Positions 8,874 to 12,366 of a stretch of DNA of 51,215 bases are shown here, piece after piece. The position numbers and the translations under genes are program-made. Positions within the stretch are counted from its first letter, which is position 1. The number at the start of each line of letters is the position of its first letter. The stretch lies in contig JAGBZX010000019.1 in NCBI GenBank assembly GCA_017628025.1, positions 1 to 51,215 of the forward strand, read 5' to 3'. This stretch comes from Kiritimatiellia bacterium (GTDB lineage: Bacteria; Verrucomicrobiota; Kiritimatiellia; RFP12; UBA1067). Below the pieces are notes generated by a model. That model saw only the letters and a program-made list of their open reading frames with translations, did not search any database and had not been told where the DNA came from.

Positions 8874-11009
8874 ATGAAAATACTCCTAGTAATATTAGCC
8901 CTCACATTTTCAATCTCACTTTATGCCCAAAGAGTTTGCTTATTTGATTTTGAAGAGCCACCACCCCTCTCTTCTTCATCGTCAACCAGCATGGGCTCTC
9001 AAGTTTCAATTTCCACTAATTTCTTCACACTAGGTAAATCTTCTCTTAGACTAAGTTCTAAAAAATGGTTTTGCAAAAAATGCAAATGTACATTTGCAGA
9101 ATTCCCCCTGCCATCTGATTTATCTCGCTTTACTGCTATTAGATTTGACGCGTTACTATGTTATGAAAAAGGTGCAACTGGAACTATAAGCTTTATCGGC
9201 AAAAACAAAAACCTTATAAAGCCGTTTTATTTTTCTCGACCAGGCGCTAGGAGTTTTACTTTTCTATTACCAAAAGACAAGCAAAACATAACTCATGTAC
9301 GTTTCACCTCTTCTCGACCAGAGAACGAAATTGACATCTATATTGATAATGTTCAGCTTTTAGACAAGGAAGAAAACATAAACAACATAATCGATGAACA
9401 CACACTAAAAAGAGAACGAGAAATTGATAATCTTACCGCCGAGCGCGACCACCTTATTTCTTATACTCGCTTTCTTGCCGCATGCATTGAATCCGGAACT
9501 ATTACAAATTCAATTTTGTTAGGCTATGCCTCATCAATGGAAAAAGTACGTCCAAGAGCTAGATTTAATGCATCGCCTGCAAAAAAACTTTCTCTTTCGC
9601 TAGCTGGCAACGAATACGAATCTATACAGCTTGTTATCGCGCCTTACACTAACGATCTTAATGATGTAAAAGTCGAACTAGTAGCTGATATAACTGACGC
9701 GAAAGGGAATCGTATTGGAAAAGATTCAATTAAAATTTCTCCTGTCGGTTATGTACATACAAAAACTCCCCTATCTAGGTGGCAGATTGCGCAGACACCT
9801 CTTTCCGGTTGGTGGCCAGACCCTATTCTTGATTATCCTCTTACTCTTAATATTCGCTCTAATGATGTTCAAAGTTTTTGGATAAAAGTCCATGCTACTC
9901 AACATCATAAGCCTGGCCTCTATAAAGGCGAGGTAAAGGTCTCGGTTTCAGGCGAAGAAAAGGCAAGAATTCCACTTGAAGTTAAACTCCGCTCTTATCA
10001 CTTGCCGAAAAGGTTTCCTCTTGACACATTAACATCAAGTACTCGCCATAACTTAAGTGCGGATTTTCTCGAAGATTTTCTTATCTTCTCAAATCAGCTT
10101 TATTGCAGAGAGCCTAACCTAGCAGACGTCGATGCCGCTATAAAAAGAAACACCTTAGGCATAATAAATCTTGGGTGGGTCGAGGTAGAACGCGATATGA
10201 GTAAAAATTTTGACTTAGACAAATGGGCTAAAACTTATATGCCGCGTCTAGAGAAAGCGTATCATGAACTATCAAAACGCGGCGTCCAAAGCAACGCTGT
10301 AGTTTATGCCTGCGATGAATTGCCTAAAGAAGCGTCTCATCGACTTAGGGACATCGTTAAACTAATTAAAGAACGCCTACCTTATGTTAAAGTCTTAACA
10401 ACATCATTTGACTCTGATGCGGGCTTAAAAGGCGCTACCCTTTCTGAAATAGACGCAATGTGCCCAACAACAAAGCGCTATGTTGAAGAATTAGATAAAG
10501 TTCAATTAGCTAGAAAAAACGGCAAAAAAATCTGGTGGTATATCTGCAAAGACCCAGAGCCGCCTTTTGCTAATGCCTATATTGAGTGCCCTGCAATTGA
10601 TTTAAGAGCGCTAATGGGGGCCATGACAACAAAATGGCGACCTGACGGCTTTTTATATTGGAGCCTTACGCAGTGGCGCAAAAATAAACCTCTGGTCAAC
10701 GGCCCTTTTATTTCAGATTGGGAAACAGAATCATATGAAGATTATAATGGCGATGGCTCATGGTTGTACCCAGGCCCAGAAGGCAAAGCCTTGTCATCTA
10801 TTAGGCTCGAGAATTTTAGAGATGGGCTTGAAGATTATGCTGCCGCCATGCTACTAGAAAAACTAGGCGGCGACCCCATGCCTGGAGAGGAACTAGTCAA
10901 AACACCAAAAGATTTCTCACGAAATCCTCAGGATTACTTAAACTGGCGTGAAAAAATCTCTGATGAGATTGAAAAAAGAATATCTACTGAAGCGGCGCGC
11001 GGCGAATAA
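8874..11009 (+). CDS. Secreted GH123-like glycoside hydrolase (DUF4091)
   Basis: 711 residues from the ATG at 8874. That start gives a clear signal peptide (MKILLVILALTFSISLYAQ), whereas an earlier in-frame ATG at 8799 would lie inside the upstream gene and spoil it. A beta-rich N-terminal region is followed by a short helical linker. The C-terminal half is the GH123/DUF4091 catalytic fold, with the Asp-Glu pair in VVYACDELPKEA (about residue 480) and the late conserved segment YWSLTQWRKNKP. GH123 enzymes cleave beta-N-acetylgalactosamine from glycans; activity here is inferred. The gene starts 13 bases after the dehydrogenase stop. Its last 29 bases are also the 3' end of rnpB on the other strand. 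Confidence 0.85.
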   Translation: MKILLVILALTFSISLYAQRVCLFDFEEPPPLSSSSSTSMGSQVSISTNFFTLGKSSLRLSSKKWFCKKCKCTFAEFPLPSDLSRFTAIRFDALLCYEKGATGTISFIGKNKNLIKPFYFSRPGARSFTFLLPKDKQNITHVRFTSSRPENEIDIYIDNVQLLDKEENINNIIDEHTLKREREIDNLTAERDHLISYTRFLAACIESGTITNSILLGYASSMEKVRPRARFNASPAKKLSLSLAGNEYESIQLVIAPYTNDLNDVKVELVADITDAKGNRIGKDSIKISPVGYVHTKTPLSRWQIAQTPLSGWWPDPILDYPLTLNIRSNDVQSFWIKVHATQHHKPGLYKGEVKVSVSGEEKARIPLEVKLRSYHLPKRFPLDTLTSSTRHNLSADFLEDFLIFSNQLYCREPNLADVDAAIKRNTLGIINLGWVEVERDMSKNFDLDKWAKTYMPRLEKAYHELSKRGVQSNAVVYACDELPKEASHRLRDIVKLIKERLPYVKVLTTSFDSDAGLKGATLSEIDAMCPTTKRYVEELDKVQLARKNGKKIWWYICKDPEPPFANAYIECPAIDLRALMGAMTTKWRPDGFLYWSLTQWRKNKPLVNGPFISDWETESYEDYNGDGSWLYPGPEGKALSSIRLENFRDGLEDYAAAMLLEKLGGDPMPGEELVKTPKDFSRNPQDYLNWREKISDEIEKRISTEAARGE

Positions 11010-11395
11010 GCCAGATTCTGTTCTCTATTCAAAGATTTTCATCTCTAAATAGATCCGATCATTCATCTATAGCGATCAACCCGGGGCCTTATGGCACATA
11101 CGTGCGCAGCCAGACTGGCCGCCCGTCGGCCCCCTATTTGATCTTGCTCCAGGGAGGGTTTACCTTGCGCCTGCCTTTTACAGCAAGCCGGTGGGCTCTT
11201 ACCCCGCCATTTCACCGTTTTCCTTCCGCTATGCTTGGCACATGGATGGTACGTCTATTTTCTGTGGCACTTTCCATCACACGGGATTACCCCGCGTCTT
11301 CCGCCCTTAACGAACGGATCCCTTGCCATATGGAGTCCGGACTTTCCTCTGTCAAAAGACAGCGACCGGTCACTCGCACGCCGCTTCAGTAGATA
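10981..11395 (-). ncRNA. rnpB: RNase P RNA, bacterial class A
   Basis: The minus strand shows the conserved core of RNase P RNA: AGAGGAAAGTCCGGACTCC near the 5' side (11350-11332), GGAGCAAGATCAAATAGG in the middle, and ACAGAATCTGGCTTAT near the 3' end. The RNA is the catalytic subunit that trims tRNA 5' leaders. The ends are set by helix P1: TATCTACTGAAGCGGCG (11395-11379) pairs perfectly over 17 bases with the complement of 10981-10997. That P1 is longer than usual, and its 3' strand lies within the last codons of the convergent GH123-like gene. The gene starts 13 bases past the stop of the zinc-ribbon gene. Exact mature ends are uncertain by a few bases. Confidence 0.95.
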
Positions 11396-11408: not shown

Positions 11409-12134
11409 TTAAGCGTAGAGAATTCGCCCGCAGACATTGCAGGCGACAACTCTCATCGGCTTGCCTTCAGCGGCATTCTTAGCGTTTATTTTCACGAGCT
11501 GTGCAACGCTAGGAGGCTGCTGTAAATTGCAACCATCGCAAACACCCTCGTCAGTAAGAGGCGAAACTACAGGCCAACGCCTCGTGCGAAGACGCTCATA
11601 TGCCAACAGAAACGAAGGATCAGAAACGAGCTTTTCTTTTTCACCACGCTCTGCCTTGGCAACGGCAAGCTCAGATTCTACATAAGCGATACGCTCATCA
11701 AACTCTGCCACATGAGCATCAACAACGCTCTTCTGTGCATCATATTCTGCCTTAGCCTTAGCGATAGCTTCATTAGCACTAGGCAAACGATCAGTAGTTG
11801 CGAGTATATTATTCTCAAGCGTATCAATCTCGTGATCAATCTGATCAATCTGAATAGAAAACTGTTGATACTCTTTATTGGTCTTTAATGAAAGCTGAGC
11901 ACGCTTCAACTCATCTTTTTTCTTGCGAAGTTCTTCTGCCTCTGCTTCATAGGCCTTAATACGATCTTCGTATTGTTCTAAAACAGCCTCAGCGGCTTTA
12001 ACCTCAGCGCTGGCACCATTAAGCCCTGCCATTTCATGCGCCTTTCTCGCTGGGAGATGCTTGAGTTCCTTTTCGAACTCCATTACGCGACCATCAACGT
12101 CCTGCAAATCAAGAAGCGCATCAATGACAGACAC
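11409..12134 (-). CDS. Coiled-coil C4 zinc-ribbon protein (CT398/CdsZ-like, DUF164)
   Basis: 241 residues. Residues 1 to about 175 form a long charged coiled coil, and the C-terminus carries a C4 zinc ribbon (CDGC ... CNVCGRILYA). This is the CT398/CdsZ family; the chlamydial member has been linked to type III secretion and sigma-54, but the general role in bacteria is unsettled. I place the start at the GTG at 12134 (MSVIDALLDLQ), preceded by GGAAAGGA. The frame stays open further upstream, but only by reading through two tRNA genes. The gene is sandwiched between tRNA-His and rnpB on the same strand. Confidence 0.85.
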   Translation of the reverse strand: MSVIDALLDLQDVDGRVMEFEKELKHLPARKAHEMAGLNGASAEVKAAEAVLEQYEDRIKAYEAEAEELRKKKDELKRAQLSLKTNKEYQQFSIQIDQIDHEIDTLENNILATTDRLPSANEAIAKAKAEYDAQKSVVDAHVAEFDERIAYVESELAVAKAERGEKEKLVSDPSFLLAYERLRTRRWPVVSPLTDEGVCDGCNLQQPPSVAQLVKINAKNAAEGKPMRVVACNVCGRILYA

Positions 12135-12160: not shown

Positions 12161-12237
12161 TGGGGCAGGAGACGGGACTCGAACCCGCAACCCACAGAAT
12201 CACAATCTGTTGATCTAACCATTGATCTACTCCCGCC
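12161..12237 (-). tRNA. tRNA-His (GTG)
   Basis: The cloverleaf on the minus strand has acceptor GCGGGAG paired with CTCCTGC, T arm GCGGG-TTCGAGT-CCCGT, and anticodon loop TTGTGAT (anticodon GTG, 12203-12201). An extra G at 12237 faces discriminator C73, the identity element of tRNA-His. CCA is encoded. Confidence 0.96.
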
Positions 12238-12245
12238 ATCTTTAC

Positions 12246-12321
12246 TGGAGCCAGGTAAGGGACTCGAACCCCCGACCTGCTCATTACGAATGAGCCGCAC
12301 TACCAACTGTGCTAACCTGGC
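12246..12321 (-). tRNA. tRNA-Thr (CGT)
   Basis: Acceptor GCCAGGT pairs with ACCTGGC, the discriminator is U, and CCA is encoded. The anticodon stem GCTCA/TGAGC encloses loop TTCGTAA, giving anticodon CGT for ACG codons. The T stem has two G-U pairs. It lies nine bases upstream of tRNA-His and is the first gene after a strong promoter. Confidence 0.96.
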
Positions 12322-12336
12322 TTGTGATTTCCTATT

Positions 12337-12366
12337 AGTATATCAAAAGCCCGTGCACAATGTCAA
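12337..12366 (-). promoter_or_regulatory. Strong promoter of the tRNA-Thr/tRNA-His/zinc-ribbon/rnpB unit
   Basis: The minus strand has TTGACA (12366-12361), an 18-base spacer ending in TGA, then TATACT (12342-12337). Transcription should start near 12330, about nine bases before tRNA-Thr. No room for another promoter exists between the zinc-ribbon stop and rnpB, so rnpB is either co-transcribed or has a promoter inside the zinc-ribbon gene. Confidence 0.7.

Follow-up and report, generated by a model that had tools for sequence, protein, structure and literature searches.

In the window, which is the whole stretch of 51,215 nucleotides of Kiritimatiellia bacterium DNA analyzed here, two opposed genes overlap at their 3' ends: a GH123-like gene on the plus strand runs into the minus-strand gene rnpB, which encodes RNase P RNA, and takes its last codons and its stop from it. 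The overlap comprises 19 bp if the RNA is taken to end with its Rfam match and 29 bp (10981 to 11009) if it is taken to end with the pairing of its P1 helix. Very probably, this is a neutral convergent overlap created through stop capture, in which the partner is a structural RNA and the affected part of the protein is a dispensable tail. Judged from the sequences, regulation would not be needed to explain the overlap, and a regulatory role of the antisense contact is possible.

The RNA gene matches the class A RNase P RNA family over the full length of the covariance model (RF00010, model positions 1 to 367; 198.1 bits compared to a gathering threshold of 100; E = 1e-62) on the minus strand from 11381 to 10991; no second copy turned up in the source genome, the assembly of which is incomplete. 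Its ends keep pairing beyond this span, in that 11375 to 11395 (the 5' strand of P1) pairs with 10981 to 11001 (the 3' strand), so that the gene extends from P1 to P1 over 11395 to 10981. The resulting helix has 21 bp, 20 Watson-Crick and one G-U, and was recovered both by an inverted-repeat search and in the MFE fold (z = -8); no other inverted repeat of 12 nt or more occurs within the 551-bp region. The exact 17-bp match given in the preliminary description (10981 to 10997) is thus present and grows to 21 bp through the single G-U pair. With its covariance-model match and a P1 that joins the 5' and 3' ends and covaries across the genus, we take rnpB to be an ordinary class A RNase P RNA gene. 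It resembles RF00010 in its full-length match, in P4, and in the conserved 3' element GGCUUA, whereas its 21-bp P1, a genus trait, and its insertions relative to the model are unlike the family. Between 11010 and 11115 on the minus strand, the RNA lacks a hairpin where the Rfam model has P18, and a 13-bp hairpin, perhaps P19, precedes the ACAGAA...GGCUUA element.

The convergent gene (plus strand, 8874 to 11009; 711 amino acids) starts with an ATG at 8874 and a signal-peptide-like segment, is probably secreted, and ends with a TAA at 11007 to 11009. Its score for the GH123 catalytic domain (Pfam GH123_cat, 80.2 bits compared to a cutoff of 23.1; E = 2.3e-22), together with a match to the GH123 N-terminal domain (E = 4e-10), places it in the family, and we regard it as a real gene for a predicted enzyme. 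Homologues are present in 41 of 96 related genomes, and their alignment shows a common C-terminal motif, W-R-x-x-[IM]-[SA]-D-x-[IL]-E. Most of them end no more than about 11 residues past the D-x-[IL]-E part, and the closest one (45% identity) has a tail as long as that in the window, 11 residues. In the window, the motif finishes (DEIE) exactly where a U-tract of the RNA strand starts, and the variable tail that follows, KRISTEAARGE (10974 to 11006), takes its codons from the U-tract, from P1, and from the bases of rnpB between the helices. This tail would therefore sit in a region that is free to vary, and the variability of the C terminus there would be why it is tolerated.

That the 3' strand of P1 lies within the last codons of this gene, as first described, was borne out, and RF00010 by itself already ends the RNA at 10991, inside the coding sequence. 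The further proposal that RNA pairing fixes the residues STEAARGE holds for most of them: read on the plus strand, the P1 arm dictates (I)-S-T-E-A-A-R and the first base of the following G codon, whereas the final G-E and the stop are set by the segment between P4 and P1. Relatives from the same genus that lack a GH123 gene at this site carry nearly the same P1 arm, and since P1 is kept genus-wide without that gene, it is the RNA that dictates the codons and not the reverse. The stop itself is the complement of UUA in GGCUUA (minus strand, 11007 to 11012), which comprises the end of the P4 3' strand and the next bases. All 190 of the RNase P RNAs that we examined contain this hexamer; the search pattern allowed up to two substitutions overall, and none fell in the hexamer. 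When the RNAs are read antisense from P1 in the frame of the TAA, the first stop is that same TAA in 175 of 190 and lies inside P1 in the other 15, while the first stops in the other two frames lie within the RNA gene at median depths of 68 and 106 nt. With an invariant GGCUUA and its complementary TAA, any gene that enters in the right frame ends within a few codons.

To place P1 among its relatives, we used 190 rnpB loci (47 from genomes of the genus, 33 from genomes of the order outside the genus, and 110 from the remainder of the phylum), with genes in the relatives called by a simple method. The median P1 length is 21 bp in the genus, 14 bp in the order, and 13 bp in the phylum (P = 5e-11 and 1e-16 for the genus against the order and the phylum, respectively, by a rank test that ignores kinship), which confirms the earlier impression that P1 is longer than usual. 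At least 18 bp are found in 42 of the 47 genus genomes, and the window arm is close to the genus pattern CTCCTGAAGCGACGCGCG. The 43 distinct pairs of arms in the genus have standard pairs in 92% of cells, against 72% (maximum, 77%) after arms were shuffled between genomes, again with kinship ignored. Compensatory changes occur at all 22 positions, the outermost of which is often unpaired. No GH123 gene lies beside rnpB at any of the other loci examined, and the downstream genes of genus relatives are mostly co-directional with rnpB. The long P1 is a genus trait and not a response to the overlap.

Two further features were seen at the P1 ends of relatives. In genus g1 (e.g., L036, L042, and L050), the P1 sequence itself is conserved beyond pairing, TCTCCTGAAGCGACGCGCG, and is preceded by CTCTTTGA(A/C)A, for which a promoter, a processing site, or a protein site are candidate reasons. 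TATAAT-like boxes, some of the extended -10 type (TGGTATAAT), immediately follow the P1 3' strand in L030, L031, L036, and L055; these are probably promoters of co-directional downstream genes that overlap the end of rnpB.

The overlap, the genus-wide P1, the variable tail, the invariant stop, and a second case described below were all computed; the order of events and their neutrality we infer as follows. The RNA sequence would have come first, given that the genus keeps a P1 of 20 to 27 bp with nearly the same sequence whatever gene follows, that GH123 adjoins rnpB only in the source species among those examined, and that the conserved domain ends before the P1 arm. A gene would then have arrived convergent to rnpB, or lost its own stop, and continued across the U-tract and then the P1 3' strand, beyond which one frame of three stops at the TAA. 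It would have gained a short tail with the ribozyme unaltered, and the end of the protein would be an imprint of the RNA helix.

A second overlap comes from the same class but a different family. In genome G122 (locus L123), a GT4 glycosyltransferase gene (Pfam, 1e-14) unrelated to GH123 ends on the same TAA with the tail ...SDVKKAQAER. Its orthologues (62 to 81% identity) end about 11 residues earlier, and those in G098 and G125 lie on contigs other than that of rnpB. In L122, a congener of L123, the rnpB end is nearly identical and the GT4 gene is absent. The GT4 gene has plainly been extended into rnpB, with its stop clearly moved. Loss of an earlier stop is evident for the GT4 gene but not for the GH123 gene, the closest homologue of which has an equal tail. 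Verified overlaps thus number two in 190 loci, and recurrence rests on n = 2.

Other convergent genes stop short of the helix. Four related open reading frames (ORFs) from families f2 and f5 (400 to 454 amino acids; L006:291-1493:+, L013:1888-3132:-, L020:1887-3251:-, and L028:1888-3126:-) stop at the outer end of P1 without entering it; they have a common C terminus, GERCD[ST]T, and are probably real genes, although they have no Pfam match. Likewise, a response regulator gene in L133 stops at the U-tract and does not enter P1. Many relatives contain antisense ORFs of at least 100 amino acids over rnpB, which we discounted as a sign of common overlap: two Pfam scans gave no match for 20 ORFs that overlap or adjoin the end of rnpB, and the codon-position G+C content of several antisense ORFs makes them look like shadows of opposite-strand genes. 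Nor was there evidence for Fe-ADH as a shared ancestral neighbor, because the one that converges on rnpB in G189 has no more than 28% identity with that of the window.

It had been suggested that the long P1 compensates for transcript collision or antisense contact, i.e., that it is an adaptation shielding the folding of RNase P RNA from the GH123 transcript. The two genes do converge, and a simple terminator scan found no terminator-like site on the plus strand past the GH123 stop, which makes antisense transcription into rnpB possible. However, P1 is not longer where an overlap exists than where it is absent: it is equally long in genus members without the overlap, most of which have co-directional downstream genes, and the second overlap has a normal P1 of 13 bp, as in its nonoverlapping congeners. 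Moreover, the GH123 mRNA carries the sequence of the P1 5' strand, so added pairs would strengthen the antisense contact equally. We consider this adaptation highly improbable and largely refuted already. Even more remote is an artifact in which the GH123 frame does not truly end at 11009, be it through an assembly error or a miscalled frame. Although the genome is a draft of 45 contigs and about 71% complete, homologues can be aligned as far as the final residues and terminate at similar positions, both features are intact, and the P1 pairing is perfect but for one G-U.

The upstream side of rnpB offers another reading of the long P1. A gene for a CT398-like coiled-coil and zinc-ribbon protein (minus strand, 11409 to 12134; assigned by Pfam and synteny) stops 13 nt upstream of P1, so that rnpB is squeezed between two coding genes. 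This neighbor is conserved in the order and in much of the class, and its stop lies within 30 nt of P1 in nearly all genus members. The named relatives with this gene are metagenome-assembled genomes of Kiritimatiellae or Verrucomicrobia, two of them from sheep colon and yak cecum. Farther upstream are genes for tRNA-His (GTG) and tRNA-Thr (CGT) (minus strand, 12164 to 12366; anticodons read by eye), with a strong promoter-like site, TTGACA-18-TATACT, at 12366 to 12337 ahead of tRNA-Thr. One transcript may possibly run from the tRNAs through the zinc-ribbon gene to rnpB, and P1 could then be a processing stem at which RNase III cuts rnpB out of a common transcript with the zinc-ribbon gene, and perhaps with the tRNAs too. 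RNase III prefers about two helical turns, to which the 20 to 27 bp of the genus come near, and the tight spacing and the promoter-like site would fit as well. Yet genus g3, which belongs to the same taxonomic order and has equally tight spacing (about 4 to 15 nt), has a P1 of only 8 to 13 bp, so spacing fails to predict P1 length, and we regard this function as quite improbable.

Compatible with stop capture, rather than opposed to it, is the idea that P1 also ends transcription. The U-tract UUCUUUUUU directly follows the P1 3' strand (minus strand, 10972 to 10980; within codons E-K-R-I on the plus strand) and is a possible intrinsic-terminator tail, a role that we infer from U enrichment across the 190 loci. 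Five or more T in 7 occur at the P1 end in 78 of 190 loci, compared to about 10 expected from downstream DNA, and in the phylum set T makes up 45 to 59% of the first positions past P1 versus about 25% farther on. The terminator scan found nothing at the rnpB U-tract, because there is no local hairpin there, and in most U-tract cases of the genus (11/13) and the order (10/13) no local hairpin abuts the tract either. P1, closed over the whole ribozyme, could therefore be the terminator stem and the U-tract its tail, such that a stretch of about 38 bp would serve as helix, terminator, and protein tail at once. Against this, 20 of the 52 phylum cases (about 40%) do have a local hairpin next to the U-tract, only 13 of 47 genus members have a U-tract, the stem halves are 370 nt apart and may pair too slowly for termination, and U-rich 3' trailers can serve other roles. 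We hold this terminator function to be possible but doubtful. In L027 and L032 (genus g3), CCCCGGCG, which is either the P1 3' strand or its copy, precedes its own complement and a T-run (CGCCGGGGCTTTTT), and P1 may there face competition for this strand from a local terminator hairpin.

It is tempting to speculate, if with rather little confidence, that across Verrucomicrobiota P1 and the U-tract form rnpB's own terminator over the folded ribozyme, on which convergent genes were repeatedly captured. If so, termination would be coupled to correct folding, and the same 38 bp or so would be ribozyme helix, terminator, protein tail, and stop codon. The U-tract, frequent after P1, raises the question of whether RNase P RNA terminates its own transcription through P1. 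Our search of a literature library returned no report of rnpB overlapping a convergent gene or of P1 as a terminator, which does not prove absence. With or without a terminator, the window offers a clean case of a structural RNA helix setting the C-terminal residues and the stop codon of a protein, and of opposed genes that meet their stop in an invariant ribozyme motif, GGCUUA. One gene of such a pair would be trimmed by annotation pipelines in which coding sequences may not overlap noncoding RNAs.

Convergent overlapping gene pairs are known to arise via loss or movement of stop codons (PMC2174442; PMC4161906), and terminators within coding sequence have been noted (PMC2174442). Like overlaps between two protein genes, the one described here is tail-to-tail, with one gene running to the first in-frame stop inside its neighbor. 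In contrast to them, the neighbor is a structural RNA, the captured stop belongs to a conserved sequence, opposite GGCUUA, and a base-paired helix sets the residues of the tail. In Thermus, rnpA, the gene for the protein subunit of RNase P, overlaps rpmH on the same strand. Both there and here an RNase P gene overlaps another gene, but in the window the gene concerned is that of the RNA, and its partner is a convergent gene for a predicted enzyme.
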